Positions 3,574-57,467 of a stretch of DNA of 64,000 nt are shown piece after piece. A program made the position numbers and the translations under genes. Positions within the stretch are counted from its first letter, which is position 1; the number at the start of each line of letters is the position of its first letter. The notes under the pieces are model-generated. The model was not told the origin of the DNA. It did not search any database and saw only the letters and a program-made list of their open reading frames with translations. This stretch comes from Gracilariopsis chorda (Eukaryota; Rhodophyta; Florideophyceae; Gracilariales; Gracilariaceae): NCBI GenBank assembly GCA_003194525.1, contig NBIV01000058.1, positions 186,001 to 250,000 of the forward strand. Direction: 5' to 3'.

Positions 3574-3620
3574 CTGAGGGAGTCTCCCCTTTGGGAGAGG
3601 TGTCCTAAGACAAGAGGCTG

Positions 3621-20291: not shown

Positions 20292-21656
20292 GCGTAAGCA
20301 GCTCAACCAACTACTTCAACAGGGTTTCATCCAACCGAGCGCAAGTCCTTGGGGTCCACCTGTACTGTTTGTCACGGAGAAAGATGGGTTCTTAAGGCTA
20401 TGCATAGACTACAGAGGTTTGAAAAAACTAATGGGGAAGAACAATTATCCTATACCCAGGATTGATGACATATTCGATCAGTTGAGTGGAACTAGAGTAT
20501 TCCCTAAAATAGATCTCTGTTCAGTTTATCGTCAAATAAGGCTTTCTGTACGGTTGGCTCCTAGAACAGCCTTTCGTACAAGATATGGTCACCTTGAGTT
20601 CCTTGTAATTCCTTTCAGTCCTACCAATGCGCCAGATTCGTTCATGAGCCTGATTAATGGCGTATTACGAGACTACTTAGTTATGTTCGGTATAGTATAT
20701 CTAGATGGCATCCTTATTAATAATACAAACGAAGAGGAACGTCTCAAGCATCTCAGATGTGCACTTGACAAACTGCGCGAGCACATGCTTTATGGGAAGC
20801 TTTCGAAATGTGAGTTCTTGAAAAAGAAAGTTGGGTACCTAAGACACATTGTGAGTGCAGAAGATATATATGTGGAGGCGCAGAAAGTTGTTGCAATCTT
20901 GAATTGGAGCACACAGAAAACCAAAACCGACTTCCAGGCATTTACCGGGTTAGTAAACTACTACCAAAGATTAATTAAGAACTATTCGGCAATATCAAAA
21001 CATTTGACCAAACGATGCGGAAAATCCGAATTTGAATGGAATCAAGAACAAATTGAAAGTTTTGAGTCTCTGAAGAAAGCTGTAACGAGAGAACCCCAGT
21101 ACTCAAACACGTTGACCCAAAACTATCCATTATCGTTACTACCGACGCTTCTCAATACGCCATTGTAGCTGTCATAAAACATGTTGAAAAAAAGGTTAAA
21201 CGACCTGTAGCATTTTCGCCAAGAACATTGAACGCAGCAGAACAACGTTATGCAACCCATGTGAGAGAACTCTTGGGAGTCATAGACACGTTGAGAGTAT
21301 GGAGGGTGTACCTCCATGGCCAAAAGTGCACAGTATGTACAGACGACTACCCTTTGAAGTATCTTGAATGTCAACCGAACCTATCTCAAAGACAGGTACG
21401 CTGGCTGGACAAAATCGTAGAATTTGACATTTATTTTCAGCCGATCAAAGGGAAGTCCAACGATGTCGTAGATGGGCTTTCAAGATACCCAAAATATGCT
21501 GAAAGTCTTGAAGTGATGAACCGGTCATTACTCCAAATAGCAGTTTCCAGAACTTCCAAAGTCAATGGGGTATCTCAGCTTGGTGAAGTCTCCAAAAATG
21601 ATAGGCGCGCATTCATCAACGGGTATCTAAACAAAAAAGAGTTCAAAAACTTATAA
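20292..21656 (+). pseudogene. Gypsy C RT and RNase H (broken)
   Basis: RT landmarks include [40 protein letters not shown] and a GIVYLDG catalytic-box region. RNase H follows with a TDDYPLKYLE region and an end at DVVDGLSRYPKY. This is typical Ty3/gypsy pol order. The region is interrupted. Confidence 0.85.
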
Positions 21657-33172: not shown

Positions 33173-33570
33173 TGTACGACAGGAAAAAGTCCTGTTGTAC
33201 ATGGCAGTGGTGGTCGCTCGACCACTGCAGTCTAAAAAATTGTAATGTTTTGGAGAAATAATGGTCGAGCAACCACTGCACGCATGTACGACAGGAAAAA
33301 GTCCTGTCGTACATGGCCGCGGTGGTCGCATGACCACTGCAGTCTAAAAAATTGTAATTTATTGGAGCGCCAGTGGTCGAGCGACCACAGCGCGCATGTA
33401 CGACAGGAAAAGTCCTGTCGTACATGGGGGCGGTGGTCGCTCGACCACTGCAAGCAAAAAAATTGTATTTTTTTGAAGCGTCAGTGATCGAGCGACCAGT
33501 GCGGGCATGTGCGATAGGAACAACTGCCGTCCTACAAGCGCGCAGCGGTCGCTTATTCACGGATCATTAA
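33165..33570 (+). repeat. Palindrome array, right block (about 3.5 units of 111 bp)
   Basis: The palindrome with arms TGTACGACAGGA / TCCTGTCGTACA repeats with centres near 33190, 33302, 33411 and (weaker) 33522. Between these lie a second palindrome family (GTGGTCGCTCGACCAC; CAGTGGTCGAGCGACCAC) and A/T spacers around AAAAAATTGTAAT. Each unit can extrude at least two cruciform arms. Frames that run through it are artefacts of the repeat. Confidence 0.9.
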
Positions 33571-34193: not shown

Positions 34194-37100
34194 TTATTTC
34201 ATCCTGACAACAAGTGCTCGTGCTTTCAGCATACACGCCTCCCATTCGCCCTGTAGGTCTTCGTCCATTGTTTGCTTCACGAGATCATGTCCTTCCCGAA
34301 TGAGCAATGACATATTACCATCCGTTGCGTGTGCGGAGGTTGTAGATATACGACGGGGAAGTATGTTGTTGGGGTTCTCTTTGCGATAGGGTAGCGGAGA
34401 ACGAGCGTGTTGTTGTGGAAGCAGTTGTGGCGGTTGGTGCGATTAAACAGCATTAGTAGCAGGAGAAGGGTGCCTATCATTGGGCTTGTGCAGAGCTCTC
34501 CGAATACGAGGAAGCAAAATGGTAGTGAGGGCCGTTTTAACCCCTGCAAAGTCGCTCCCTTTGACAACGTCTGTCATCGCGTTGAATACCACAGGGTCTT
34601 GAAGGATGTTGCGTAGGGTTTTTTTTGTTATTATTGGATGTGGCGACGTGCTGTGTGAGCTGTGTAGGGTTACGTTGAAGTTATCGCTTCCCGTCATAGA
34701 AACCATCTCGCTTTGAAGGGGTTTTTGGTTGATTGGCTTCACCTCGCTGGTGTACGGTGTGCTGGGCGTTGAAAGCTTCTGGATTTATAGGGGTTTTTGT
34801 ATGTGGGACACTTGGATGGGTCGTTCCGGTGGCTTGCTTTAGGGGCTGCTGAGCCGAGGCAGTGAACATGTTGCATGGTACAGGTGCCTGTCCGTTTTCC
34901 TCGAATGTGTGCATGAGAGCTTCCATACGGTGCCGAATGCAATCGACGTAGTGGGTGAAGTGGAATTTGGTGTACCATATGTTAAAGTGCTTTTGCACGT
35001 CCATTTCGGAACCGTTTAGAAACGTTGAGATTTGTTTAGAAATGATCTCGATGTGGTAGGTTGTGAAGAATCCACACTCGAGGTGTTGCTGGATACTGCG
35101 GCGAAGGTGGTGAGTGGTGACAAGTGACGATAGGAGGCGGAAGGATACGACGTTCTGTCCTGGGTACGACGCGGTTAGGTAATGAACGATTTTTTGAGAG
35201 AGCAGAGCATGAGGAGAGTGGTTGGCCGACATGCTATCGACACAGAGCATGGTGGCTCTATATTGTTTCAATTGCTGTTTGTGCGATCGTTTTAGCATAT
35301 GAGGGGCACGCTCCAGCCTTTCAAGAAGGAGCGGCAGGTTTGCAAACGCAACTAGTGTCCAATGATTGTGCCCACACAACATCACAATGGACAGTTTTGA
35401 TGTCCAGATTTTGTCATGGGGATTGGATTTGCGTTTTGTTGATGTGTTGCGAAAGTCTCTGACTTTGGCGCTGAGACGATCCAACGTTGAACTGCCCTCG
35501 CGCAACACGGTATCCCACCATGCAGCCACCAGCTGAGGGTCCAGAATGTACATTTCTTTCTTTGATGATGGCTCAGTCCAGCTGTTGAGAAAGGAAAACG
35601 TGAACATTATAGTTTGGTCACTAGCCATGCTGCAATCGTGTATAGAACGCACCTCTTGCTGGGATAGCGAGAGAGTTGTTTGAAGGAAGCCTCTTGTGGC
35701 AGCCAGTACTGGCTTGTGTGGGTGGTTGGGCTTACCACTGCTGTTTAGGTCCTTGTTGGTTGTGTTGTTGTGCAACTGTGCGCAAACCTGTGAAAAAACC
35801 GACGCAAGATTGAAAACCCTGTTGGATGGATTGTGGTTGTTGATCTTGTTTTGGTTGTCGTCGTGCTCGGTGCCATTGTCGGCGATACTAGGGTTGTAGG
35901 GGCCTGAAAGAACTCGTTCTTTACCATGTTAACTATACGAATTCTTTCCTCCTGGCTGTAGGGTACTGTATGTTGCTGGGCCTGAACGTCGGTCTTCGCG
36001 ACGTGCTCGTTCTCTAAACGTCGTTGCAGGTTGTGTAAAAGGGTCATATTACCTTGCAGATCCCAGTTGACGTATCCATCCCAGCCTAGGGGAGGTAAAA
36101 ATGCGAATTTAGCGCGCTTAGGCGTTTGAATAGAACGCGTCGACCGCTGGGCTTTTGGCGACGGGGATGGCGTTTTGGTGTTGCATGCAGTGGCAATATT
36201 ACGCGTTGGTATTGTGGGGAGCGGTTGTTGTTGCCGCTCCAGCTGCACTTCATCGTTTGTTTCGTCCTTACCCTGCTGCTTCTGTTGTCTTCGCAAAGAT
36301 GTTATGGCAGACGGAGTTATCGTTGTTCTCCGTTTCTTGGCGGCAGGGTGCTCCAAAATATGCTTGGCGAGAGGACTGTCGCCTTTAGAACGTTGTGAGC
36401 CATTGTTGTCGTGATCCTCTTCGTTGGCACTGGGAAAGGGATCATAATCGTCAGAGAAGCGACACACAAAGTTACTAGCGCCGCTGCATTGGGATTTAGA
36501 CTTCCAGTACTTGACTGTTTTCTGGATTCTGTGAAGAGACCAGTTACGAACGGTATTAATAGAGACGCAAGAGAATCGGGTTCTTGCGTGTTTATCTAGA
36601 TAGCATAGATCAAGAAGCACGTCTGCGTGAAGCAATTTGTCCGCCCCAGACATGTAACCGCGGATGGAATTGGGTTTTAAGGTGACGTCTAGGAATTGTA
36701 TTGCATGGCGACTGTTAATACATGCCGACGTTTGAAGCACTTTATACAGATGTAGCAGCTTGTTTTGGGTCATGGAATGCGGTCTTGCACGTGTTGTGCG
36801 CGTCTGTGTTCGGCAGTTGATCTGCTGCAATGTCCAAAATTCCTTTAGTTTGCTGTACATGAGCACTTGGTGCATGATGGTGTACATTTGGGGTCTGGGC
36901 GCTGAGGACTCGACATGGTGCGCAATGATGCCGTCGTATCGTTTGAGCTGCACAATGATGTTGTCGGTACCCATCCCACTGAGATTAATGAGCCGGTATG
37001 GAATGAGAAGCATATGATTCAAGTGAGCGCTGACGAGAAGTCGGTGACTGCCGCCCACAACAAGTAGTTTTCCAAGGGCCAAGCCGCTGTAGCCCTTCAC

Positions 37101-37295
37101 CACGAGTAAAGCTTGCGACACATGAAAGTCCACGCCACAAACAATCTGGTTTGCGAGTGCAACAAGGTGGGTGTGTGATGTGCTTCGTCCTATCAATGGG
37201 CCGACGAATAGGTCTGCGGGGGCGAGACGTATAGTAGATGACTTCGCCGCTTGCGTTCTCCTGTATATCTCGGAGGAAAGCTCAGACAAATCCAT
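34194..37295 (-). pseudogene. Long gene with Ulp1-type cysteine protease domain
   Basis: About 1,030 codons from ATG 37295 to TAA 34194-34196. Codons 1-500 are unrecognised, followed by a Gln/Thr/Ser-rich linker (36400-36150). The protease domain, at about 35640-35060, has His in NHWTLVAFAN (about 35364), Asp in LCVDSMS (about 35238), and Gln and Cys in QQHLECGFF (Cys about 35076), the His-Asp-Gln-Cys order of C48/Ulp1 enzymes. The protease lies in a different frame from the two flanks (overlaps 35745-35775 and 34681-34742), and one in-frame TAA lies at 34443. The frame changes could be indels or introns. Ulp1 domains process SUMO-like tags and are common passengers of DNA transposons. It faces away from the 37667 gene. 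Confidence 0.7.
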
Positions 37296-37666
37296 GGGGA
37301 TCTTTTCTGTTTTGGAGGTCGATAGTAGGTTGAACGGTGGGTTATCTTTTGGAGGCGCGTTCTAGCATAACGTCGTGGAATGTAGCGGGCGTACGTACGT
37401 ACATATTTGGCGCTATAAACGTTTAGGCGTGTCTTGTAATAGGTGTCTGTGTGGCTGTTACGGTTAGGGTTTTATGCTGCTGGTCGGAATGTACTGCTGG
37501 AAGCAAGCTTTGTTTAGATTTTTTTAGGTTACAGGACGATTGGTGCGGTTTTAGCTTTGCACTACTATCCTTCTTGGTACGCCTGCTCCCGTTGCACGGC
37601 ACAAATGAGGGGTTTTTGGGAGAGCGCTTAAAGTGGGTTGTGTTGTGTTTTAGGGGTTTTCATAAT
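37296..37666. promoter_or_regulatory. Divergent intergenic region
   Basis: About 370 bp separate the two start codons of the divergent pair. It contains cgtacgtacgtacat (37390) and a TATA-like ctataaacg (37411). A shared bidirectional promoter is inferred from layout only. Confidence 0.4.
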
Positions 37667-39292
37667 ATGGGTCGTGGGAAAGAGCGTTCCGTACTAGGAA
37701 GCATGCAGTTGGTGGGGTCGGTTGACGTTCCCGTGGAGGTTATGGTGGATGAAGCTGTTTTAAGTGACTTTAAAGGCTTTACAACGGATAACGCAAAGAG
37801 TCGGGTTTGGAAGGTGGCTTACGAAGGGTTGGTGGGGGATTTTGGCTTTGGGATGGCCATTAGCACGTTTTCGGCGGAAGAGTACTTACAAATCGAACAG
37901 CATTTGCGATATAACAAAAGGTTGGGGGATTTGCAGAGCTTTCTCGGCGCCGAGCAATGCCCAGTGGCGCTGCGGCATAACTATGTAGGCCAGTCGGGGG
38001 TAGCGAGGTTAACGCGGCAGGCGAAGAGGAGGGTGACCAGGGGTGAACGATGCAAGCTACTGGACTCGATGATGGTCGCACAGCAGTACGTGATTCTGAA
38101 GGTTCTGGAGCGGGCGCTGGTGGAAGGCGTGCATGGAGCGAATACCGATCGGACCCCGAGATTCTACAATGTGCCGCTAGTGTGGAGTGTGTATTGTCAG
38201 TTCTGTGTGGAAGTTCCGATTGTGACAGGAATGGTGGACTTCATTCGGGTGTTGAACGAGCGGATGGACGAGATGTCCATCGAGGGCTCTCGCAGTGTAC
38301 TTTGCTCGAGGGCGAGCACGGTGAGTGGAAGTGGATGTAAAGCTTGGGATGGATGGAAGAGCAACAGTGCGCAAGCGGGCAGGTGGGTGGAGTATGGCGA
38401 GTACATCGTTTTGACCTTGTTTCCAAGCCAGGTGGTAGACATTGAAGGCAATTCTAAGGGCAGCACAAGCATCAAGCTCGCCAACAACGCAGCCCCAACC
38501 ACGACAACAACCGGCGAAGGCGTTATGGAAGAACCGGGTGTGCACGTAACTGTTACGGAGGAGATTGTGCGCTGCTACAGCGCAGAGGCTGACAATAGCG
38601 GCTTGTATTGTGAGTACGTTGCTCCACTGAATCCGCTGGATAAGGGGTGTGTGAAGACGTACTACATGAAGGTGGGCACTAGCATTGTGGTTCCAAGCAC
38701 GTATGCAATTCGGATTGGTAGCCATGCGACGCGGGCGGCTCGGATGTTTGGGTACATTGTGCGCAGAGAGCGGCTGAACAAGCAGAAGAAGGGGCAGGGG
38801 GTTTTCTACAAGAGAGACGGTGGTGTTGTACAAGCTGACCAGCTGTTTGAGTATGGGTGTGAGAGCAACTTTGTGAGGGAGGGGTACGCAAGCAACAGCC
38901 ACAAGGCTACGTTTAGAGGGTTTTTTGGGGAAAGCAAAGCGGATGAGAGGTTTATGGTGGGCACGATCCCGAGCATGCTAAACATGGAGCTGAATACACC
39001 ATTAGGTCGCAAGATTGTGGAGCCTTTATATAACGTACTGCCAGCGGTGGGCTCGATGATGGAAGTGTACCGGGCGAACCCAGTGTTGGTGCTTGAGAGT
39101 AGCACGCAGCGGCAAACGCGTGGGGGAAAGCGAGGTGAATGGGATGATGAAGGAGTAAGGACGATGGGTGTTAAAGGGGAGCAGGGATGGTTGGAGGGGG
39201 ACGTGCCATATCACTATTTTGAGTCACTCAGGGGGAAGGCGCTACGTTTTCCTTTCAACACTGCAGACATACGTGAGGAAGAGATCAGGTAG
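37667..39292 (+). CDS. Intact 541-codon gene of unknown function
   Basis: I chose ATG 37667 (MGRGKERSVLGSMQLVG) because the in-frame sequence upstream reads like leader and has low-complexity hydrophobic composition. There is no stop for 541 codons, unlike nearly every neighbour. The protein is mixed alpha/beta in character, with a basic patch (RLTRQAKRRVTRGERCK), a conserved-looking middle (YNVPLVWSVYCQFCVEVPI) and a C-terminal segment (LGRKIVEPLYNVLPAVGSMM). No catalytic motif, zinc finger, signal peptide or membrane span is evident. After the TAG at 39290 the same frame stays protein-like for about 36 more codons. It is divergent to the Ulp1 gene and is probably part of the same element. 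Confidence 0.65.
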   Translation: MGRGKERSVLGSMQLVGSVDVPVEVMVDEAVLSDFKGFTTDNAKSRVWKVAYEGLVGDFGFGMAISTFSAEEYLQIEQHLRYNKRLGDLQSFLGAEQCPVALRHNYVGQSGVARLTRQAKRRVTRGERCKLLDSMMVAQQYVILKVLERALVEGVHGANTDRTPRFYNVPLVWSVYCQFCVEVPIVTGMVDFIRVLNERMDEMSIEGSRSVLCSRASTVSGSGCKAWDGWKSNSAQAGRWVEYGEYIVLTLFPSQVVDIEGNSKGSTSIKLANNAAPTTTTTGEGVMEEPGVHVTVTEEIVRCYSAEADNSGLYCEYVAPLNPLDKGCVKTYYMKVGTSIVVPSTYAIRIGSHATRAARMFGYIVRRERLNKQKKGQGVFYKRDGGVVQADQLFEYGCESNFVREGYASNSHKATFRGFFGESKADERFMVGTIPSMLNMELNTPLGRKIVEPLYNVLPAVGSMMEVYRANPVLVLESSTQRQTRGGKRGEWDDEGVRTMGVKGEQGWLEGDVPYHYFESLRGKALRFPFNTADIREEEIR

Positions 39293-39933: not shown

Positions 39934-41126
39934 TCACTCCAACGTTAAGAATTGTGGGCCATCTGCTTCGTTGGCTGCTGCGTTGGCTTCGCTGGCTTTG
40001 GCCCGTTCCTGCTTCTTCCAGAAGCGGTTCCAGTAAGCCACATACCTATGAAACATATTCTCTCGTGTGATCCTCCTCCGCGTGACATTACAACGAGTTG
40101 TCTTACGTGAGCGTGCTACACGTGCACCTACATCTGTACTTCCAATACGTGCATGTACACGTGCACTAATTACACCTTTCCTGACATTGTCACCTTGTGT
40201 AAACAGCATACTACGTGGCCATCTCTCATGTAACTTTGGATTCACAAACTTAGTGTAAACCCATTGTTCCAGCAGCTTCCACGTATCTCTCACAAGTGGA
40301 TGGTACTGACACTTGACGACTTGGTCTAGTTCAGGAGGATCCCTAGTGACGCCTCGCAAATACTTGTCACGATCACGGTAACTTACATAATCCAATGCGA
40401 CACGTAGCTGTTTTCCAGTATACCCACGTTGTGCCAGCATTTGAAATAGAAAGTGTACCTTGTGCACCCAGGTTCGTTCATCGCTGGTGTTTCTCAGGTA
40501 CCTGATTATTTCTCCTTTGATAACACCAGTGAAAACGTGGTCTGGGTGGTTAGAATTGCCGTGGAGATAAAGAAATTTGGAGATAGGTTTCGTGTACACC
40601 TTGATGTCCACAATATTCCTGAAGAGGAATCTCCTTCCTTTATAGATCTCCAGATCCAGGTAGATAGCTCGCTGATCACTGATATCCCATGTAAAGTTGA
40701 GATTTGAGCATGCACTTAACTTTTTCATGAGACTTTCAGCCGCTTCTCTGGATCGGAGGATCACGAAACCATCATCAATATATCTTCGGTTCATGATCAC
40801 ATCCTTGGCATAGTCCTTGAAGATCCTTCGGAACTTATAGAACAAGTACAAGTTGGCAAATGATGGAGCAACTGGTGTGCCCGTTGCTGTCCCAGTTACT
40901 TGTCTATAAACCCTTTCTCCTAGCTGTACTAAATTGTTGTTCATAATCAGCTGTAGGATACGACACCAGAAGCCATTGTTAGTCATGAATATTGAAGGTA
41001 GTTCACGAACCAACACCCGAATGGCATCTTTGATGTCGATTGCAGGGTAGCACCTTTCCACGTCGTACGTTAGGAATGTACAGTCGTTGGGAAGGTGCAT
41101 TTGTTCCAATTGCCTCACAGTCTGCC
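39934..41126 (-). mobile_element. Penelope-like reverse transcriptase, 5' truncated, no endonuclease
   Basis: The minus-strand frame has RT motifs in order: TFLTYDVERCYPAID (motif A), GTATGTPVAPSFANLYL (motif B), MNRRYIDDGFVIL (motif C, catalytic DD), YLDLEIYKGRRFLF (D/E) and the HGNSNHPDHVFTGVIKGEI thumb block, typical of Penelope-like elements. A basic C-terminal tail follows with no GIY-YIG endonuclease. Motifs before A are missing: from 41127 the same frame runs into antisense Helitron sequence. Endonuclease-lacking members of this class are known to attach at telomeres. The frame itself is open. A related group II-like or domesticated RT is the alternative. Confidence 0.7.
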
Positions 41127-41879
41127 GTACGCCAAGCCGATGATCCGGCATTTCCGTCACTGTTACGTTCCATTGCAAGCAACACAATATCAAACAACGC
41201 TCCAATACCACTCAGATCTACCCGTGGCGTGGAAACAACTTATCAATTCCTGTGGAAGTTGCTCACAACACGCCGCAAAGAGGATGTGGATCTTAGCAAA
41301 ATGCACATTGCGTCCAAAAATGAGTTCGTCGATGAACACAATGCAGCAGCGCTGGATCTGTTTCCTGGTGAAGGCTTCACTCTTCCGTCACCTACGACGA
41401 TACAACCTGACCGTGTACAGAACTTAGTGTCCGACGTCACCAATACCTTTGTTCCCGATTTTGCATATCAGTATGCACCTACTGGAGTACCACCTCATAA
41501 CTTGGATTTGACGATTAGTGTGCCAGTTATGGTCATTCGGAACGTGCTGCATCCCGCTGTGGTCCATGGAAAGCTGTTCTTAGTCGTGTATGTCAATCAG
41601 TTTACGATGCCGGTGGCTCGACTTGATGAGATCCGACAGGTGCTGGAACGATATCTCCTGCATCGTATCGACCTCGCGTTTTCTTTCGCAGACATTCGCA
41701 TGATTCGGAGGCAGTTCTCCATTCGTCTCGCGTTTGCAGCTCCCGTTCACAAAGGACAGGTAAAGATGTTGGATGGCTTGGTTGTGGATATACGATATGA
41801 CGTCTTCTACACCGGTCAGTCTTATTCAATGTCGCGCGTTCCAAGGAACGACGATGTGCTACTCCTGCATGACCTGTAG
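41127..41879 (+). pseudogene. Helitron A, C-terminal Pif1-type helicase fragment
   Basis: About 250 codons aligning with Helitron B from VRQAD to the end: NTISNNAPIPLRST, TTRRKEDVDLSKM, FIASKNEFVDE-like, VPPHNLDLTISVPVMVIRNV, IRRQFSIRLAFAAPVHKGQ and the final VPRNDDVLLLHDL. These are the later helicase motifs (PPH...L, LR.. IRRQFP..LAFA...K.QG) of Rep/helicase Helitrons. It is uninterrupted here although the start is lost at the junction with the Penelope RT. Helitrons transpose by rolling-circle replication. Confidence 0.8.
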
Positions 41880-45290: not shown

Positions 45291-45299
45291 TCCGCGTCG

Positions 45300-45645
45300 G
45301 TTTTCTGGGTATGCTAGTTTGGCATTCAAAAGGCAAAGAATTAAAATGAACGAATAACGACTCTTCGAACCCAATTTTGAATGAATCAAATTTCTCAAAA
45401 TAATTCCATACATAGCACAGAGCTAGTTTGCTTAGGACAAAAGACTAGCAGTATACTAGACATTTCCCACTTTCTTTGGGAGATAAAACTAGCGCCAGAC
45501 TCCACTAATACCTACCCTCTCAGGTGCACGTGGAATCCAAATCTTACTGGTCCTGAGCGAATGCCCCTTCAAATAGCAAAATAGAATAGATAGAATAGAT
45601 AGAGTAGATAGAATAGATACATAGCATTTACATAACCAAATAGTT
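45300..45645. other. No gene; AGAATAGATAG microsatellite
   Basis: A short (agaatagat)-type tandem repeat at 45585-45620. Nothing else supported. Confidence 0.5.
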
Positions 45646-47090
45646 TTGGCTTTCTATCACTCGTTGCCCGACCTGCTCCATGCATTGCATGCTCTACCCC
45701 ATGTCCTACTAAAAGACGCTCTGCATCACGTGCACCACCTCATCTACGTGCGCCATAATATTAGGCTCCCCGATATCCCACTCCGCCACCACCCTCCCTT
45801 CTCTGTTTCCAAGCATCCCGTTCTCCGTTCTCCTTCCCCCACCATGATACCCTGTTGCCATCCTCATTGCACCTTCTATGGCTGCACCGCGTTCTCTCTC
45901 CAGAGTCACCAACGCAGGTGCCCTCATGGACTCAAACCCGACAAACGCCCTTCCTCCTCCGCCAACGCTCCCGTCCAGTCCCCTCCAAGGACCAAGCGAC
46001 GAAAATCCGTTCCAAACCTCTCCACCATTCTTCCTCCCACTCCCTCACACCGCCCCTCCGACAACGCCCCCCTCGCCGAAGATGAACCCTATCACATCCA
46101 ACAGGCCTCCCTTTCCCTCCGAACACAAGACGCATGGCAAGTCACGCCCTCTGTTCAGTCTCCTCCTCAAACTCACCTCCCCATACCTCGTCCCAATCCC
46201 CCTTTCCTCTCCTCAACAACCCCCATCTCAAGCAACTCGTCCTCTGCATCTCCTCCATCGCTTCCTCCTTCATCACACGCAAATCCGACGAACTCATCTC
46301 CCTTCTCAATCACCCCGACTTCTCCAAGTCAGCATTCCAGAAATACATCTCCTCCGCAAAGCAGTGGCTCGCACTCCAAGACCACCTCGTCAAGGGACGT
46401 ATCAATTACACCAGTTTTCTCGCTCTCTCAATCTCCGACGAGCACAACTCCTTCTCCGCAACTCTCTTTCAAAAAGGCGCCATAGACGTCCTGAAGCAAC
46501 AACTCGCTTTCGCACAGTTCAACAACATCTTCTTACAATGCGTGTCCCAATCTTCACATTACTCTTCTTCAACCCCCGCCTTCGCCCATCCTATGGCCGC
46601 AGCTTTCGGAAACGAAGTCGTTCCTGTCTTTAAACAGGCCATCGCGCAGTGCCACATCAATGATATCGTCGGGCACACCCCCGAAAGAACCGGTATGGAA
46701 TCATTCGTCGGTCTCGTCCAGTTATACTCCGATACGTCTGTAACCTCACTCAAAGGTTCCCTCATCACCTCGTACCCCCTTCACATCACCCTTCTCAACC
46801 TCTCCGACGCATTCCACCGAACGTGTGCCTCCCAAAACCTCACCATACTCGGATACCTCCCAACTTTCTTCTCCCCCTCTTCCTTCCCCCAGCGACGGAT
46901 ACTCCATCCCACATTCTTCCTGCAACAACCCACGCGAAACAAGAACGGCCCTCACTCAACGCGTCATCTCCGCAATCTTCCGTTTCGAAGGTATCCGCAG
47001 TGCTACCTTCGCTTCTCTACTCCCATTCCTAGCTATAAAACGCGGGTCACCGTCATTGCAACCTTCATTCTCCAATTATTCATGATGTAG
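45646..47090 (+). pseudogene. Plavaka/CACTA-like transposase, N-terminal part
   Basis: A candidate N-terminal C2H2-like finger (CCHPHCTFYGC, then SLQSHQRRC, about 45850-45930) is followed by a Ser/Pro-rich linker. Then comes a helical domain in another frame (46134 on: RKSDELISLLNHPDFS, YISSAKQWLALQDHL) and the diagnostic block LVQLYSDTSVTSLKG, YPLHITLLNLSDA, LTILGYLPTFF (about 46710-46870). In Plavaka-type transposases the equivalent block reads like SDkT..., yPvyltlgN, lgYLP. At least two frame changes occur, and the C-terminal catalytic part is absent: from 47105 the minus strand is coding instead. The family call rests on that block alone. Confidence 0.5.
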
Positions 47091-47104
47091 TTCTCTCACC
47101 CTCT

Positions 47105-49175
47105 TCAACGCCACCCCAAGTATTCTATCCACCGCAAGCCGAAGATACTCCCCGTACAACTAGAGAATAATAACTGCCGTCTTCTTCCACGCCCCATATC
47201 TGTGTCCATTGCTGTCAAAACAAATCCGATCCAGGCATCTAAACGAGCCAAATGCATCACTGTCCCATCAACGTACTCTAACTTTCCCTCCCTATCTATC
47301 CCCACCTCATATCCCATGAATTCTTCCAACACTTCCACCGCAGCCCCATTCTTGAAGTATATGTCCTCTTCACTAATCTCCCTCAGCCGACCAGCAACCT
47401 GAAATCCAAAATACGTAAGATCCTCGATTGTTCTCATCCTCCAAGAACATAAACTACCGCTCTTCGCCTCCCCATCGCCCTTGAACTTCGTCTTTGCTTC
47501 CTCTAACTGCTTTTTCAACTCAATGTCTAGCCCCGTCCCCTCTCGCGGTCTCACACGTCAGGCAATCAAGTCATATCCAAGCAATGAAAGCATTTTGTCC
47601 GGTGCCGCACGCTTCTGAATCCCAATCACATCACTCAAATTCTGCTACATTAGTTGCCTCAAACACCTGTCCGCAACAACCTCTCGCATGAATTGATCCC
47701 TCCTACCCGCATCACTAATCGACTGCCATCTCTCTCCCTCAATCTCAACGCCAACCAAGTACTTCAATAGGTCATTATTTCCTCCTCGCGACGAAGGCAT
47801 GTACGACCTCATCTCAGACGCGATATCAAACGGACATCGAGGCACAAGTTCCTTTCCTCTGACGACAAACACACTCCACTCTCTTCCCTTCCCCAATACT
47901 TTGCATCGACTCTTCCAGTTTCTTTCCACACCCTCCGAAGTAAAACAAAACTCCTATACCTCCACCTTTGCATAGTACAAGAACCTATCATATATTACCC
48001 TTGCAATCCCATAAAAACTCTCTTGCACATCAACTACATACTTTCTATACCCTCTCAAGGCATTTTCACATTCAGACCCCTTTCTCTCCTCTCTTCCCAC
48101 CTTCATCCATTCCCGTAAGCTATCTATCAATATATTCTTCTCGCTCATCTCTTCTCTCATCCTCTTCAGTTCCTCTTGCGTCAGCTTCAGCGACCTCTTT
48201 AGGCTGCAGTGGTCCCCTTTGATCTGTCCGATTTCTGCCCTCAAAATATGGACCCTCTCAACTAGCGAAGATCAAGACATCACACCGATGTCGTCATTTC
48301 CTGCATCTCCCAAAACATTGACAGGCAGGCTTCGCGCTTCAGCAGGTTTACTTGGAGACCGATGAACAATTCATTTTCTCTCCCGCATGCCTTTCAGAGT
48401 CTGCGGCGTTCTGGTTCCTCTATCACTTTCAAAGTTTTCAGCCATTTGCACCTTTCGCGTCCGCACGGGTGTGATTGTACGGTCTCCGCTTTTCGATGCT
48501 TCCTGTATTCCATCCGTCGCTCTGAACACTTCTTTCACTTCTCGCGCTTCCTTTAAATTAGAGCGGCGCCCCACCCGTTTGTTTATCATATCTCTCGTCC
48601 ATATCTCCTTCATAGTGTGATCCTCTTCCCTCTTCGTCCCCATCACTGTGTACCAAAAAGATATTTACCTCTCCTACATCTCGGTTTCCACTTGGCGCCC
48701 CACCTCTCTTCAGCGCACCTTCCTCTTCTATTTGTTTCCCTCCGGGCATACCTTCATCCTTTTCTCGGTCTTCGACCGGCGCATTTGCTTTCAACCCTCC
48801 TTGATCTGTTACCTCTTCCGTTCTCCGAACAACCAACCCTTTTGTACACTCCACTCTACCACCCGACCTAGGCATAGATCGCTGTCCTAGAACCGAATCT
48901 CTCCTGCCTGCTATATGCGCATGGGCATCAGCCTTCAAATTCTCACTCGTCGTGCGCTCACTCGTCGTGCGATCGGATCCGACTTTTTTTGTCCCACCTC
49001 TTTCCCCTCTCTTCGAAGCACCTTTTTCTGACCTCCTCCCCAATAATCCGCTCCTGGGGACACATGATTTCGGTTTCGTTCCACTCGCGGATCGCTCCTT
49101 AATAGCCTTTCGCCGCGTCTTAGCCGCACTCGCCGCACTACCCCTTCCTGGGCTTCGCTTCTTTCCCTTCGGCAC
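47105..49175 (-). pseudogene. Basic/coiled-coil protein, decayed, partner of the MTase-SET gene
   Basis: Starts MPKGKKRSPGRGSAASAAK at 49175. The N-terminal 200 codons are Lys/Arg/Ser-rich and look nuclear. The frame changes once between 48646 and 48558, then a single frame runs to 47105 with in-frame stops (48371, about 48288, 47954 and 47645). That half contains a charged coiled coil (SLKRSLKLTQEELKRMREEM, 48200-48130) and a C-terminal globular region (RWQSISDAGRRDQFMREVV; LTYFGFQVAGRLREISEED). I do not recognise the family. It lies 300 bp downstream of the MTase-SET gene on the same strand and converges on the transposase fragment. Confidence 0.45.
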
Positions 49176-49475
49176 GATTCTTGGATTCTAAACTCTTGCG
49201 CAAGTGGCTGGTGACGCTCTGGGTTGGCGCACGCCGTGTGTTCTCCGGGAACACCTCGCCACCCGATGCGCACAAAAATCTTTGCTTTTTGTGAAATCTT
49301 GAAAATACAATCCTCGGTGGTACCGTAAATGGACGTTTCTGTATCACATCTATATCGCTTGGTATATTTTATCCCTACTGAAAATTAATATTGTTCTATG
49401 TTAGGATTAGACATCCACCCACATAATAAAAGACATCCTTTAGCCAAGCTGTGGAAAAAGGTTTATAACAACAAA

Positions 49476-52400
49476 CTAATCAATGACTATCGTTCCATCC
49501 TCCACATTCAAATGGGTTTGCCAGTCATAAACATCACCGTATCTGGCGAAGAGTTCCTTTCCTTGCTCTATGTCGGCTGTTGCCTCCATCTTAATAAGTT
49601 TGTAGTCCGTTATTCCCCCTGGTGTTCGTCCCACTCCCAGTGTCCGTTTCATTCGCACATTAGCCTCCTTTTTTTTCACGAGGCCATCCACCATTGCATC
49701 TAACTTTTTATCCCCTTCCACGTACTTTGGTTCGTTGATATACATCGCAATACAAAAAGGGGCAGGAACCAACCATAAAATGGGGTTTGCTTGTTTTCTA
49801 TGCCAATTCGTCAGCTTTTTTCGATGTGGAAGTGAATGGAACTGTTGACCGTAGACTTCTATCTCCACCGCATACTTCCGGAAGTGATCTTTCGTCACAC
49901 CCATGACTCCCTCCCCGTAGGTGTTGTGCACTTCTTTCCGATTCGAAAGGTCATGATAAACCAACGTCCCGTAGAAATAGCACACTACCTCTCCTGCAGC
50001 AATTCGACGAGTTGCAAACACTCCAACACCAGCCTTTTCGAGACTAATAGTAGACATGCCCACTTGCAACCCATATTGCACAGCCTCCATTGCCAATAGA
50101 GACTTCATGTTCTCCAGATTCATTCTTCCCTGCAACACCCTAGCCCATCCATCCATAGCTTTCTTCCTTCCCAACTTCCCTAGAATTAAACTTTGCCACA
50201 AAGTGGAGAGAAAGTCGACAAGGTGTGGGGGAAGAATTTTGTACGGTGCAAATCCGTCGACAGCCCTCCATAACACGGTGTGCCTGCATCTTCCCATTGG
50301 GAATGCAGAGAAAACAAAATGGGCCATCTTTCAAAGCTCCTGGCTCTGCTCAATATCCGTGTGTCCTTCCCGTAGTATGGAAGCGAAGCGAACAATAGTG
50401 GCATGCCTGGCGTGTTCAAAGCAAGCTTTGCCAGGTTCACACCCCACAAACTTCCGATGCTTGGGCAGTTCCATGCACGCCATCGCGGTCGAGAACGTTC
50501 CGGCAAACATGTCGACCACGAGGGCTCCTGGCTGACTGAACCTGCTAAACAGCTCTTTCAACAGTGTCCTACACTTCTGTTCCGGTCACACCTTACTTCC
50601 TCGTATACTTCCCATCCGGGTTTTTCACAGACCACATGAGCATCTCACTATTTGACATCGGCGGCACCTGAACCATGATAGCATGATAGGTTGGTTATCG
50701 TGAAGCAACATAATTGAAGTTCTCATAGTTGACCATCCGGTGCTGCTGTTTATAAAGAACTCCAGAACCAACAGCATGTACAGCGTATTCTGTCGTCTGG
50801 TGCACCCGGCAACTTCCTCTCCCAACGTTACCAGTCGTATTACCTAAAGACCGTTCGAAATGGAGGGGCTGTTCGTCGACGACAAAGAAGTAACGCATCG
50901 TATCCAATTCATCCATGTAGGTAACTTTCCGTAGCACATCCCGCCACAACGGTACCTGATCCCATGAGCAGAACTGTATAATATGTCAACCAGGACGTAG
51001 AAGCTTTGAAGATCTCCTCGCTGACCTGCGCATGCCCTTCTCTATCAGAATATCGTGTTCGCTGTTCTCCAAACGACGCTCAGAACGAGTCCCATATGGC
51101 GCATCGGAAAGCAGGAACTGTACCCTTCCTTCAATAGATACCTCGCTTTCGCCAGACTTGTTTTAGTCAACTTCGATGAGATTTTCGAACTTGCAGTTGT
51201 GGAAACGGAAGTTGCGGGACATCTCCTTCTCACAATACTTGTAAGCTATTACATCACTCAAAGTCGTAGGGTACGGTGGTGCACGAATCCCCGTGCCTTC
51301 GACATCATACGATAAGTTCTGCGACACAGCTGTTGTCTGCAGTCCTTTAGTGGCTTTTGGTGCAGTACCACGTTCCGCAGTACCACGTTCCGCATCCGTT
51401 TCCATCTCTATCTCTTCCACTTCTTCCAACTCACCCTAATCACCACCTTCGACATGCTCAGCACGTTCGTTCCCACCACCTCCCGTACCAGTTTCTACCG
51501 GCTCTATAATGAGGTCAACTTCTTCTGCAGGCTCTGGTTTCACAGCTTGATGTACTTTGACATTGCTTCCATGCAATGCAATAATTTTCAGAGGCTTTAT
51601 GGACTTTTGAACCGTACTAAAAAGAGATTCACTAAAGTTCTCAAACCGCAGAGGGAAAAGTCTCGTTCTCGTGATGATGAACCTTTTGAGGGCATCCCAT
51701 TTCCTGGGAGCAGAGATGTCGAACAGTTTCTCTTGTACCACCATATTACAAAGGTCACCAAGGTATTCTATAGCACAAAGGCGAAGTGCTTTATCCACTG
51801 GGTCCGGCAGATTCAATGACCATTTGGTAACGTTTTCTTCTACGGTGGTGACGTTCTTCTCCTCCATAAACTGTTTGAAACAATCTTTGTGTTCGAAGCC
51901 CATGGAGCGTTGTGCGATATCGTTGAAGACTACACTGATATAGTGGAGTCGAATGTAAGGCAAGATCATAACCTCAACGTTGGGAAACCAGAGGAAATGG
52001 GCGAAACAATCCCGAGCCCTGGTCACCAGCTGCACACCATACCCGACTTTCTGACTCTGGGTCTTGTCCGAAAAACTCACTTTCGAGAACTTCTTAGCTG
52101 CCATGCCCCTTTTCCTCTTCCTACCACTTCCTTTCTTATCCATGGCATTCTGTTGCACCATAGACAACCCAATGACCATTTCAAAGTCCTTGCGAGGATC
52201 CTTGTGGAAAGAGGAAGATTTCTTGGTTGCTCCCAAAACACGGGACTTGCAAAAGACAGATAACAACACGTTACGGGGAATTCCGTTAAGCCCTTCCCTT
52301 TTACAATAAACCTTCCAAAAGTCCCTTACACGCCTGTCTTCTTCACTGTCCTTTACGTCCACCACTCTTGCCATAAGATAGAGTTGACGTGGAGGGCCTC

Positions 52401-52644
52401 TGAGAGACATGTTACGGAGTTCGGAGTCCAAATACGAGATTTAATCCGGTCCGATGAGAGTGAGAAACATTTTCTGGGCAGAGTCATGAACGTTCCGACT
52501 TTGTACCGCGACCTCCACAAAGTCGGTGTGCTTCAAACTTCTTGGCTCATCCACATTTTGCCTCGTCGCTGCGGAGTCATCACGAACTGAAAGATAAGCA
52601 TCAACAAGCTCTTCTCCGGTTCCGTGCATCTTGAATGAATCCAT
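49476..52644 (-). pseudogene. Beta-class DNA amino-methyltransferase joined to a SET domain
   Basis: About 1,056 codons from ATG 52644 (MDSFKMHGTGEELVDAYLS). An N-terminal part has a nuclear-localisation-like GSGRKRKRGMAAKKFSK (about 52120). The methyltransferase has catalytic motif IV VQFLLSDAPYGT at 51088-51120 and then the SAM-binding motif I QPGALVVDMFAGTFST near 50513, so IV precedes I as in beta-class N6-adenine/N4-cytosine enzymes. Next, in the same frame past one TGA (50331), comes a SET domain (about 50030-49520): GVGVFATRRIAAGE, AMYINEPKY, EANVRM, ADIEQGKELFARYGDVYDW. In-frame stops: 52441, 51436, 51163, 50986, 50695, 50593, 50331, with one frame change near 50590. So it is dead, but the frame is nearly free of indels. 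Confidence 0.75.
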
Positions 52645-52650
52645 TTCCTT

Positions 52651-52935
52651 CGGATTATGTTTCTCTTCGTTTTGGGTCGAGGACCGTGGTCCGAGGTGTC
52701 ATGGTGCTCCATCACGAACACGATGGAGCGTCAGGACGCTAAAGTTTAATTAAAATTAATGCCTGGCGCTCCGTCTTGTTCGCGATGGAGCACCGCGACA
52801 CCTCGGACCATGGTCCTCGACCAAAAACGTACCAAATTCTTTTTGCAATGCAAGTAATTGGGAGTGGAATTGCAGAGATGCTACGTTGACGACAATGGAT
52901 GTCATAAAACGTTTTGAAACCTATATATAGTGCTT
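52651..52935. repeat. Fold-back repeat copy 1
   Basis: A near-perfect inverted repeat at 52670-52827 has arms of about 65 bp (GGTCGAGGACC, CCGAGGTGTC, GGTGCTCCATC...) around an AT-rich loop (tttaattaaaatta). The arms hold smaller palindromes (GGACCGTGGTCC). The following 100 bp are also shared with copy 2. Confidence 0.85.
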
Positions 52936-53138
52936 ACGTCCATCTCTATGGAACCAAGCAGGCGTGATCACATAAGCTTCAAAAGAAAGGGGTAACACTG
53001 TTGGAGACAACCACTCCCGTGCTTTGTTTAACAAGAAAAAGTTGTTCTTCCGGTTCAATAGCAGTTTTTAATCGCTTAAACCGACGCAACGAATGCGGTT
53101 GCGAACAATGCGCAAGTCGCTTTTGACTTCATTGCCAT
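52936..53138. other. Spacer between fold-back copies
   Basis: It begins with tagtgcttacgtccatctct, the same words as at about 54486, which suggests a shared target sequence or a larger duplicated block. No gene. Confidence 0.4.
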
Positions 53139-53420
53139 GGATTATGTTTCTCTTCGTTTTGGGTCGAGGACCGTGGTCCGAGGGGTCATGGTGCTCCATC
53201 GCGAACACGATGGACCGCCAGGAGGCGAAATGTTAATTAAAATTCACGCCTGGCGCTCCATCGTGTTCGCAATAGAGCAACACGACACCTCGGATCATGG
53301 TCCTCCACCAAAAAATTATCATTTTCTTTTTGCAATGGAAGTAATTGGGAGGGGAATTGCAGGGCTGCTACGATGACGACGGATGGATGTCATGAAACGT
53401 CTTGAAAACGATACATAGTT
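53139..53420. repeat. Fold-back repeat copy 2
   Basis: A direct repeat of copy 1, 488 bp away, with the same inverted arms at 53157-53314. The two copies look like a fold-back/MITE-type DNA element family that has inserted or duplicated in tandem. Confidence 0.85.
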
Positions 53421-53646
53421 GTGGGCGCCATCACGAGACGGTGACGCAGGGGGCCAAAACGTTGTAATAATAAAAGCCAAAAGGGTGCTTTTCGTAGCTA
53501 ATAGCCCCAAAACAAGTTGAAAACAGTGGGATCAAAAGAACTAAACCCACTCTATGAAATAAAACAACACTAGGGAGAGCAAGAGGCTCAATCCCCAAAT
53601 AAAACTTCTTAACTTCTTTGTTGAAACGGCGCGCAACCCAAGAATT

Positions 53647-54123
53647 ATGTCAAGGATCACTAAGGGTCAGACCCTCGGCTTCCGGTCAGACCATCCGGAT
53701 GTGAAGTGGATTCTGCAGCCTACCTACCTCAGCACTAACCAGGAGCAGGCGCATACAATCCTTACAGGGCTTCTTGAGGAGAGCTACTAACAGCGGGATA
53801 TGCTTTCACTCTATACCCAAGCTCTCCCTTTGCAGGAAAGGTTGCACGGCACGTCGCCTGCGGATAGCTTCCCGTCAAGTACTTCCGTCCGGAAATCACC
53901 AGGTCTTTCGACCGACACCGTTATCCGAGCAAAGCTCCGGTGGGGCTCACAGACGACAGAATCGCCTTTGGTACACACTACCCGTCTCCCGTCCACGCCT
54001 AAGGCGCTTCAACCGGTCTTAGTGACGGTACTTCCCCACCCTATTGGACAACTAGCGGCATACGCCTCACTAGAAGCCCTTTATCCAGTGGCGAACGCCT
54101 CAATGGTTGTTGATGATAGTTGA
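53647..54123 (+). pseudogene. Unrecognised 158-codon frame, interrupted once
   Basis: From ATG 53647 (MSRITKGQTLGFRSDHPDVK) a single frame runs to TGA 54121 with one internal interruption. It is helical at the start and Pro/Ser/Thr-rich later. It could be the start of an element polyprotein, but no diagnostic motif is present. Confidence 0.3.
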
Positions 54124-54520
54124 AGGTGGCTGAAGGTTGATAGGGGGTGGGGCTTAGATGTTGGTCGATTGTTGAGGTGAGTTCAGACCGAAGTCCGAAG
54201 CTCAGAACCTCTTTTTACAGTGTTTAGAGGTACTACAAACGAGCCAAATACGCATTTCTACTTGCTAGTTACTCATGTGTGCGTCTAGGTTACTCCATTG
54301 GCTTCTAGAGACCTATGGAGCTGCGCACTAACCAATAATAAAGCGACAATTTGCGCCAGCATCACTAAAATACTGTAGTCTTTGCTGGGCCAACAAAGCG
54401 TGCAATGTGCTAGACACTACTGGAACATTCTACACGTGCGTTCCAGCAATGTCTGGCACATTCCGCAACATTAGCGACCGACAATAGTGCTTACGTCCAT
54501 CTCTTTGGAACCAAACATAC
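54124..54520. other. No gene seen
   Basis: No plus-strand coding signal. A minus-strand frame (54717-54430) overlaps the next gene and includes SLITYVWFQRDGRKHYC, whose DNA is partly repeated at 52929-52972. Which strand once coded is unclear. Confidence 0.35.
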
Positions 54521-55631
54521 GTGATCAAGGAGCATTTGACGTCAGCGGGTGCCAAGAAAACGCAAGCGCCACCTTTGAAGTACTCAGCCATGGACTGCAA
54601 TGGGAATAAGATAAACGCGCCATCACAGAAATGGACTCCGAGGAAGCCTGTTTCGCCGATGAGACGTGTTATCGACATGCCGACCACGCGACGCAAAGCG
54701 AAGAGCCGAAGCGCCACCCGAACTGCCAGCCACCCTGAGCCATCAATTGGGGGCAGTACGGGTCAGGTGCTTAAGGGCGATGCGGAGGTCAATCTGTTCG
54801 TACGAGTTGGGAGTACTGATGCGAAGGTGAAGGTAGGAGAGGCAAAATTGCGCGGTATGGGGGTTGCTGGGGGGCCAGTGACGAGACTCTGTCGTTCTCT
54901 ACACAACCATCCCCTGTCCTCTACGCAGAGACCTGGAGAGGACTTGGTAATTATCCTTAAGACAAATATTTCGTCACAAAAAGATGAGAAGTACCCTTAT
55001 GTTTTTCGGGGTCCCAAGGAACCGCCCGCAACTTTGAAGGAGATGGTTTCAACGGGTTTATATGCATGGGACAATGCGATGATGAGTGTCAAAAATGAAT
55101 GCGAAGATGGGAATGACTCGGTTCCACAGCAGTCAGGAGCAAATGTGAAGACTGTCCACAGAAGTACAGCTTCCAGGACCACTGCAAGACAAGTCAAGCG
55201 CTGTGTGTGTTTCTGTGTTCATTGGAAGAGGGGATGTATTTCATGCTGGGGCTGGGTACAATGATGCAATAGCGAAAGGCTATTGCATGCGATACCATAT
55301 GTGCTTTTTACCTGAGGGATACAATCTCCTGGATGCGGTGCCTAGGCATAGCCGTTTCCGCCCTCCCTGTTTTAATGATGAAGATGACCGTGGCAATTTA
55401 TGTGAGGTGGGAGGAGGGGAAGAGGAGCGGGGAGATGAAGCTGACGATAGAGATGTATTTATGAAAGAAGCCGAAGGGGAAAACCCTTCGGATGAGGAGG
55501 AAGATGAGGATATACTGAAACCAGCGGTAATGAACACTGATGTAGATTATGAACAGGAGGATGACGATGAGGGTGAAATGGTTCCTAAAGTAGCAGAGGG
55601 TCTGATACGTGAGGACGACGAAAGCGATTGA
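54521..55631 (+). pseudogene. Decayed gene with zinc-finger-like motif and acidic tail
   Basis: One frame runs 54521-55264 (basic N-terminus, RRVIDMPTTRRKAKSRS; then DLVIILKTNISSQKDEKYPY). Another runs 55203-55631 (VFHAGAGYNDAIAKGYCMRY, FLPEGYNLLDAV, then a long Asp/Glu-rich C-terminus). Between them a third frame reads CEDCPQKYSFQDHCKTSQAL (about 55147-55206), a possible C2H2-like finger. At least two frame changes. The C-terminal acidic tail suggests a nuclear protein. The family was not recognised. Confidence 0.4.
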
Positions 55632-55639
55632 TAATGATA

Positions 55640-56283
55640 AGTAAACTAGTGATATACGTTTGTTAAATCTGATGATTGCTTTGTGATCTTTATAGTGAAT
55701 GTTTATAGTGAATGGGAGAGGTTTACTACGATGGCGATTAATTTTTATGCGGCTTCATTCGAATGATGCGTAATAATGAAGGGATGATGTCTGCAAAGAT
55801 TCCGCTAGGTTATATTCCCTAAAAAAGATCTACAAGTATGAGAAGAAACTTGGGATGGGTTTATTGGAGGGGAGAATGAAGGGGCAGCTCATATGAAACA
55901 CGAATGGATGTAAAATTGAGTATGGGATTATGTATGAGAATTGAACGTGATTGTACGGATGTGAAGGATCCCGTTGTTATAGCCAAATACCGCGATTGTC
56001 CATTCTGTTGACATATTAAGTACTGGTTCTTTTCAGACATGAATGTATTGTGGCGTGCTTGATGTATAAAGAAGAGTGAAGAGGTTGAAGGCATTTTCGT
56101 GTAGAGGTTCAAAATATTGTTTTATGTGTTGGGGAGGACAAGGGGTGAGCAAATGAAAAGATCATAAGCTGTGCATTTAAGCAGTGACAAAGTTGGTTCA
56201 AGTGAAGAGGTGGGACATTCAGTATCGACTTTTGAAAGTTCATTTACAACTCTTGAACATTCATTCACGACTCTTGAACATTC
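55640..56283. other. No gene seen
   Basis: AT-rich, with a short direct repeat cattcacgactcttgaacattcat-like block at 56235-56285. Nothing supported. Confidence 0.4.
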
Positions 56284-56784
56284 ATGTCATTTGAGAACAT
56301 CCACACGAACCATGACTACTATTTGCAATTTTTGGTCAGTGAGCTTGGGGTTGGGACGATGATGGGAGGGGATGGTTGGGAGGGAGGTGCGGGCGAGGGT
56401 GGTCGAGGAGAAGGGGTAGGGGGAGGTGGAGGGAGACGAATGGATGGGTTCTACCGCGATGTGAAGAAACTATTGAGAAGCAATGGGGGAGGGCTTAAGA
56501 AGCGTTGGGATGAGTGTATTGACGAGGTTGTCGTGGAGTTGGGAGGGATGGTTTTGAGTGCGTCGGAGGAAGGAATGCCCATGGGTGCTGTGGCTGAGTT
56601 GCGCCCGAGGGTGATGGAGGCTGGGGTGTGGGCAGAGCAGCACGCCGATGGGGTTGTGGCGTGTGTGGGAGAGGAGCTGGGGAGGCTGTGGAAGGAGAAT
56701 AAGGAGTTGCGAGGACGGATTTTGGAGTTGGAGAAGCGGCTTTTACTGGTGGACAGGGCTGTGCATCTAGTTGAAGATATGTAG
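56284..56784 (+). CDS. 166-codon Gly-rich/coiled-coil frame
   Basis: A Gly/Arg-rich segment (56365-56440) is followed by helices and a heptad-like stretch (ELGRLWKENKELRGRILELE) before a TAG. Protein-like content continues in frame for about 60 codons after it. No family recognised. It could be a fragment of a larger gene. It lies 385 bp upstream of a Helitron-like terminus. Confidence 0.35.
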   Translation: MSFENIHTNHDYYLQFLVSELGVGTMMGGDGWEGGAGEGGRGEGVGGGGGRRMDGFYRDVKKLLRSNGGGLKKRWDECIDEVVVELGGMVLSASEEGMPMGAVAELRPRVMEAGVWAEQHADGVVACVGEELGRLWKENKELRGRILELEKRLLLVDRAVHLVEDM

Positions 56785-57169
56785 AACAGATATATGGAGG
56801 TGGAGGGGAAGGTGGGGTGGGAATTGCTGTCGGGAGTTGGCCTCCGGTTACTCCTGGAGGTAGAGGGGGCGTGAAAAGAAGGTTGGAGGAGAACGACGAA
56901 GAAGGATTGGAGGTTAAGAGTCGGTTGAAGAGGAGGCATGGAAAGAGGAAAGAGAGAGAAGAAGGCTAGTGATGTTTAGGAGTGTCGTTGAGGCTGTTAG
57001 GACGACGGAATGGGTGGTATTGGAATCTGATGCGCGGTGCGTCGGGTTTGTGAGAACGGAGAGAGCTGCCCAGATGAGTTCCTGAGGATGAGTTGGAAGT
57101 CAATCTAGGGCAGTATGAAGTTTGAAACTCAAAAGATGGAAATAAAAATGTTAGTTTTGGTTGGGTGCT

Positions 57170-57222
57170 CGAAATGGCACTGGCCACTGCGCGGCCAGTG
57201 CCATTTCGAGACCTGCATCTAG
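57170..57222 (+). other. Helitron-like 3' terminus (hairpin + CTAG)
   Basis: A perfect 16-bp stem (57170-57185 with 57193-57208) and 7-base loop, then 10 bases, then CTAG at 57219-57222. A 16-20 bp hairpin about 10-12 bp before CTRR is the hallmark of canonical Helitron 3' ends. The next base is C rather than the usual T. It would close an element whose body lies to the left. Confidence 0.55.
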
Positions 57223-57467
57223 CTTTTAGTGGAGAATGAACTTGCTCCAAGCTTGAAACTAGTGATGCGCAGTGCAGGTGAGGGAAGGCTCTGTAAGATA
57301 TGGAAGTGTGAATTCCAAAAAAAAATTCTTTTTACCTGGCAAGCGCCAGAAACTAGCACAATCTATCTTTTACGTAGTATTTTTGAGCTTTTGCCAAAGA
57401 AACTTGCGATCTAGCACCTCTATCTAGCATTCGGAGAACACCGACGCGCAGAAGTCATAGCAGTGAG

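Follow-up and report, generated by a model that had tools for sequence, protein, structure and literature searches.

Can a mobile element encode, on a single protein chain, enzymes predicted to write marks on DNA and on chromatin proteins alike? This question is raised by a gene of the red alga Gracilariopsis chorda, in which a beta-class DNA amino-methyltransferase is followed by a SET domain, at positions 49476-52644 of the window, that is, the whole stretch of 64,000 nucleotides that was analysed (contig NBIV01000058.1, positions 186,001 to 250,000). We found that this interval lies within a Plavaka-type DNA transposon that has decayed, and that the gene survives elsewhere in the same genome as one open frame with both domain profiles, conserved motifs and the methyltransferase fold, kept by purifying selection and placed inside inverted repeats. 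Its product is predicted to combine three parts in one chain: a helical domain at the N-terminus, a beta-class DNA amino-methyltransferase and a lysine methyltransferase of the SET kind.

The methyltransferase-SET gene and its intact copies

In the window, the gene is read from the minus strand and consists of three parts, which were delimited by profile search and by comparison with an intact copy of the same genome, C53:

49476..50330, minus strand: SET part of the gene (PF00856, E=1.4e-6, 29.1 bits, above the curated cut-off)
50331..51110, minus strand: beta-class N6/N4 amino-methyltransferase part (PF01555 N6_N4_Mtase, E=1.7e-8 in 50331-50585, above the curated cut-off; alignment to C53)
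51111..52638, minus strand: N-terminal part of the protein (tblastn to C53 from residue 26; three in-frame stops)

A preliminary description, made from the letters alone, had named five motifs in this interval, and all of them were located on the minus strand: motif IV SDAPYGT (51108-51088) and motif I DMFAGT (50513-50496) of the methyltransferase, followed by the SET motifs GxGxFA (as GVGVFA, 50030-50013), YINEP (49742-49728) and KELFARYG (49559-49536). The profile searches for N6_N4_Mtase and SET that it proposed placed both domains, in the window as well as in C53. Its further claim, that both domains share one frame past one TGA, holds for DMFAGT and the SET domain, which are interrupted by a TGA at 50333, but not for SDAPYGT, which lies in a different frame because of a frameshift near 50595; the one-frame order is true of four other copies. 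Altogether, five in-frame stops precede the frameshift and two TGA follow it up to the gene end. The window gene aligns to the intact C53 protein with 62% identity over residues 26-693 and 72% over residues 694-1065, and therefore the match is no chance resemblance. Since the intact copy has DPPY and both prolines are invariant in all 42 relatives described below, the DAPY of the window is a worn DPPY.

An open frame of 1065 amino acids was detected in four copies (C53, C241, C745 and C332), with the C332 protein 99.2% identical to that of C53 over 1065 residues. The C53 protein harbors N6_N4_Mtase at residues 518-756 (E=3.6e-18) and SET at residues 882-1044 (E=8.9e-5, 23.3 bits against a cut-off of 22.4). 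Near-identical copies are also present, as C53 matches C48 at 99.8% over 9.7 kb and C241 at 99.5% over 8.6 kb. Uninterrupted genes with the fused order, which had been named as support along with a linked transposase, thus exist in four copies, and among the listed elements running from repeat to repeat it is C53 that combines the intact gene, the transposase and the flanking repeats.

Across the whole genome, the SET profile gave 85 matches and N6_N4_Mtase at least 150, the latter being a lower bound as 150 of 175 candidates were scored. Of the 85 SET matches, 59 are preceded on their own strand, at a distance of 373-430 bp, by a methyltransferase match; several of the remaining 26 score as high as ordinary SET genes do, and some are copies without a listed methyltransferase match. 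The two domains were thus not found as separate genes of different loci, the arrangement that had been held to speak against a fusion. Conversely, 91 of the 150 methyltransferase matches have no listed SET match, and these include copies with an unlisted SET (C332) and derivatives with internal deletions, about 8 kb long, such as C37:52500-60560 (L032), in which an open frame of 608 amino acids contains the methyltransferase and ends inside SET. This 608-residue frame was recorded in ten of the methyltransferase matches.

A protein search disclosed 42 relatives, one of them from Chondrus crispus, with precomputed PF01555 in 42 and PF00856 in 19 of the 42. Nearly all of them (39) can be aligned over 84% or more of the methyltransferase-SET region, and all tested catalytic sites are retained in 32. 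Distances in the methyltransferase and SET parts are correlated (r=0.67 for 40 of the 42 rows), a value that none of 2000 permutations attained. In the methyltransferase, motif IV (DPPY) precedes motif I (FxGT), which is the beta-class order, and the PP of the former and the G of the latter are each preserved in 42/42 relatives, whereas the SET residues are kept in 33 (G877), 34 (G879), 33 (N973), 40 (N998) and 35 (Y1038). The ratio of nonsynonymous to synonymous substitution (dN/dS) between subfamilies was 0.157 (C286) and 0.175 (C60) in the methyltransferase and 0.289 in SET (C60, itself decaying), and these substitution ratios demonstrate purifying selection over longer divergence. More distant pairs have saturated synonymous sites (pS >0.75), with pN of about 0.25-0.47 in both domains. 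One misframed tree row (PLA_C249, 25 X) was disregarded.

With regard to structure, comparison of the predicted whole model recovered the beta-class methyltransferase fold, the matches listed being to the methyltransferase part, and the model of the relative P0005 displays helices over residues 27-370, in the N-terminal part. Profile, motif order and fold thus agree with the bacterial-type beta-class amino-methyltransferase that had been proposed. DPPY points to N6-adenine in this family, and N6-adenine is most likely the predicted target base. As for the histone-lysine methylation also proposed, the SET profile and motifs are present; histones remain a putative target, because the substrate cannot be read from sequence.

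Regarding origin, a methyltransferase-only profile collected 737 proteins, and stand-alone bacterial enzymes at low identity occur among the best 120 of these. A viral origin was set aside: a single-protein search of viral contigs gave no match, and the 11 loci detected with a profile match no part of the protein but the methyltransferase. A prokaryotic source was likewise rejected, as four loci of 23-29% identity were recovered, in or beside the methyltransferase region. A fungal origin was discarded as well, since named proteins of this family belong to G. chorda; one partial phycobilisome match (E=9.8e-5) is in keeping with this host.

The Plavaka-type element and a second repeat family

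Beyond the gene itself, the following features of the element were recognized in the window (ORF, open reading frame):

45295..45317, plus strand: left terminal inverted repeat, CGTCGG...GCTAG (repeat pattern, pairs with 57424-57446; duplication CG at 45293-45294 and 57447-57448)
45713..46877, plus strand: Plavaka transposase gene remnant, truncated (tblastn 59-70% to the C53 transposase; Pfam Plavaka E=0.007, below cut-off, in 46086-47090)
46974..48625, minus strand: ORF2 remnant, an 821-residue frame in C53 (tblastn 55-56% to C53 ORF2)
52636..53419, no strand assigned: inverted repeats in duplicate, on the upstream side of the gene (a self-match of 297 bp at 87%, with inverted arms each some 160 bp long)
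56449..56948, plus strand: ORF4 remnant, a 276-residue frame in C53 (tblastn 69-74% to C53 ORF4)
57424..57446, minus strand: right terminal inverted repeat (pairs with 45295..45317)

The ends of the element were defined by comparing copies, giving a 23-bp inverted repeat and a length of 12.15 kb in the window (45295 to 57446) and 11.85 kb in C53. The Plavaka-like fragment that had been noticed beside the gene is real, with 74% nucleotide identity to C53 across 45295-46970, though the window remnant alone falls below the Pfam cut-off. The neighbouring gene described as coiled-coil, a label judged by eye, proved to be the second gene of the same element, ORF2, whose C53 protein has no Pfam or NCBIfam match. 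In C53, a palindrome roughly 300 bp long likewise lies upstream of the methyltransferase-SET gene.

Allowing up to three mismatches, the 23-bp repeat occurs 140 times per strand, while the reversed pattern occurs 2 and 0 times. Among 100 repeat sites listed, 22 inward-facing pairs lie within 16 kb of each other, and these enclose a Plavaka match in 18, a methyltransferase match in 13 and a listed SET match in 3 of the 22. An exact 2-bp target duplication flanks all 23 elements (the 22 pairs and the window copy), and a 3-bp match was found in none of the 20 tabulated. Gene order is constant where the genes are present: Plavaka on one strand is followed by ORF2 and methyltransferase-SET on the opposite strand, and ORF4 lies close to the far end. 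Consistently, 71 of the 150 methyltransferase matches have an opposite-strand Plavaka match downstream within 12 kb, in comparison with three that have one nearby on the same strand and one with an opposite-strand match upstream. The methyltransferase-SET gene is the transposon's own gene, because it is placed within the inverted repeats and target duplications. This upholds one part of the earlier suggestion of a transposon's own chromatin-writing module; the chromatin writing itself would follow from the predicted activities.

The transposase of copy C14 matches PF18759 with E=1.6e-21, and the genome contains 114 matches to this family. In 21 aligned sequences, D370, D486, C506 and E808 are invariant and C509 is at least 90% conserved; which of the D and E residues are catalytic is our own reading of this alignment. 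In the available part of PMC12730594, a C(2)C between the second D and the E is described for Plavaka transposase. The termini, CGTCGG..CCGACG, are unlike both TGT..ACA and CATCA..TGATG of the fungal lineages A and B, and therefore the element is of Plavaka type but outside both named fungal lineages.

The same module was also disclosed in a second repeat family. Among the 20 copies first examined, seven loci of about 10 kb each (L012, L016, L018, L019, L026, L027 and L028) show neither Plavaka nor ORF2 nor ORF4. In those scanned, the methyltransferase-SET gene is accompanied by a zinc-finger gene of OrsD type and a helicase of DEAD/RecQ-like type, and homology extends through most of these OrsD-type loci. 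Of the 25 OrsD matches in the genome, 24 follow a methyltransferase-SET module downstream on the same strand at no more than 3 kb, and one has a Plavaka match within 15 kb. Of the methyltransferase matches, 71 are linked to Plavaka, 22 to OrsD and none to both, and the Plavaka-type and OrsD-type copies separate in the tree. A tyrosine-recombinase reading of the OrsD/RecQ-type element was discarded, as it came from motif likeness by eye, with no such match in Pfam or PDB.

Possible roles of the enzyme in the element

We lean, by a small margin over even, towards the explanation that the Plavaka-type element encodes a bifunctional writer enzyme of its own, which would act against host silencing. 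The fused enzyme would be brought to the element's own DNA, where the methyltransferase half may methylate adenines and the SET half may methylate histones or other nearby chromatin proteins, and the paired marks would keep the element expressed or accessible. Anti-silencing is favoured because of the analogy with what has been proposed for TET-bearing transposons in the available part of PMC12730594.

Several results weigh against this explanation. Recent copies show little constraint, as dN/dS inside subfamilies lies anywhere between about 0.3 and 1.6, on few differences. Ten of the 42 relatives are without at least one catalytic site. One clade (P0026, P0031, P0032, P0033 and P0034) keeps DPPY and has lost the SET GxG, N973 and Y1038, and the OrsD-type subfamily C637/C9/C236b displays DAPT or DAPA for DPPY, and in it C637 and C9 retain the SET motifs; each half can thus be lost alone. 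The whole-model comparison has no SET structure among the matches listed, which is no sign that the fold is absent, and the best SET profile matches (EZH2, KMT2C and SETD8) are all weak, which bears on specificity. As many as 57 of the 150 methyltransferase matches, including the decayed window copy, are tied to neither Plavaka nor OrsD. Moreover, no observation of this study separates anti-silencing from self-restraint.

Self-restraint is the main rival, though we regard it as unlikely: the element would mark its own copies and stay quiet in all but some tissues or stages, which would hold down its copy number and the harm done to the host. It is encouraged by the bdelloids, for which 4mC and H3K9me3 are proposed to silence jointly in the available part of PMC8885841, the comparison being N4CMT with SETDB1; the bdelloid enzyme, however, is a host gene. 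EZH2 among the SET profile matches also points this way. Nevertheless, escape would probably pay a selfish element more, and copies of 99.5-99.8% identity imply that any restraint is incomplete.

A somewhat smaller likelihood is given to methylation that times transposition, in which the transposase would be controlled by the hemimethylated state of the ends that follows replication, and SET would modify a protein other than histones, for example the transposase or ORF2. Dam methylation controls the transposase in this manner with IS10 and Tn5. Here the gene and the transposase share one element in a fixed order, and the survival of one catalytic site alone in one subfamily and one homolog clade fits separable roles; but the module also resides in a repeat family without Plavaka, and the sole palindrome that stood out, GATC, failed the codon-aware control. 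Its depletion in the elements (104 seen against 156 expected; background 202 against 224), considered as a hint of the target site, did not hold when synonymous codons were shuffled (five ORFs, z between -2.4 and +0.6).

That the gene is a passenger, hitch-hiking with no effect on the element, is improbable. Many copies are broken, the internally deleted derivatives with truncated SET have multiplied and recent copies are little constrained, as such a gene would allow; against this stand the purifying selection at longer divergence, the tested sites kept in most relatives, the correlated divergence of both domains and the presence of the module in two repeat families. That a prokaryote-like methyltransferase fragment and a SET gene came to lie side by side by chance or artefact, as the several breaks of the window copy might suggest, is already refuted by the intact fused copies, the fused relatives and the fixed spacing of the SET and methyltransferase matches.

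Returning to the favoured bifunctional writer, we consider it an even call whether it represents a wider class of mobile-element enzyme, of an age sufficient to be common to Gracilariopsis and Chondrus and in use by at least two mobile families, which would write two epigenetic layers, N6-adenine in DNA and the histones of the same chromatin, from one polypeptide, sometimes with one active half.

Known systems and other mobile DNA in the window

SET, DNMT, Dam-like methylase and TET/JBP are each known singly in transposons, and here a predicted DNA base writer and a predicted lysine writer would stand on one chain. According to the available part of PMC12730594, fungal Plavaka transposons can bear TET/JBP enzymes; they share with the present element the D, D, E and C(2)C of the transposase, the 2-bp duplications and an enzyme acting on DNA methylation, whereas the present element is red algal, ends in different termini and bears a fused amino-methyltransferase and SET, which are predicted writers, and no eraser. 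The Phytophthora HarbingerS and MuDR elements are likewise DNA transposons encoding a SET lysine methyltransferase, but they belong to other superfamilies, and the same part of that source mentions no DNA methyltransferase fusion for them. DIRS elements with Dam-like N6A methylases, and LINE and DIRS elements with DNMTs, likewise encode DNA methyltransferases (PMC5890265, available part), but they are retrotransposons with Dam-like or C5 enzymes, and the term "SET domain" is absent from that paper text. The bdelloid N4CMT (PMC8885841, available part; structure 8s9m), there said to have no eukaryotic homologs, is a beta-class methyltransferase with a chromodomain; it is a host gene acting on N4-cytosine, and it is joined to a reader rather than a histone writer. 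The N6-adenine methyltransferases CcrM, M1.HpyAVI and RsrI are bacterial, without SET, and share 17-27% identity over aligned residues. SETMAR/Metnase also ties a SET domain to a DNA transposon, but it is a host gene that joins SET to a mariner transposase, with no DNA methyltransferase. No DNA methyltransferase-SET fusion was found in titles and abstracts of the open-licence literature, a scope outside which lie Repbase Reports and subscription journals, where an earlier report is possible.

A shared chain would physically link DNA and lysine marks, offering a test of whether eukaryotic N6-methyladenine (6mA) or N4-methylcytosine (4mC) directs, or follows, histone methylation. It would also add a eukaryotic beta-class methyltransferase lineage beside the bdelloid case, in a seaweed open to methylation-aware sequencing.

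The window contains other mobile DNA as well. A Ty3/gypsy-type retrotransposon with reverse transcriptase, RNase H, integrase zinc finger and chromodomain was observed at 3609-9007, and a gag with the start of pol, of Ty1/copia type, at 31551-33245. A reverse transcriptase of another type, Penelope-like by eye, lies at 39934-41211 on the minus strand (RVT_1, E=2e-7), and an additional reverse transcriptase fragment at 20293-21168 (RVT_1, E=6e-16). Three long open frames on both strands, with no Pfam match at E 0.01, occupy 34681-39292.
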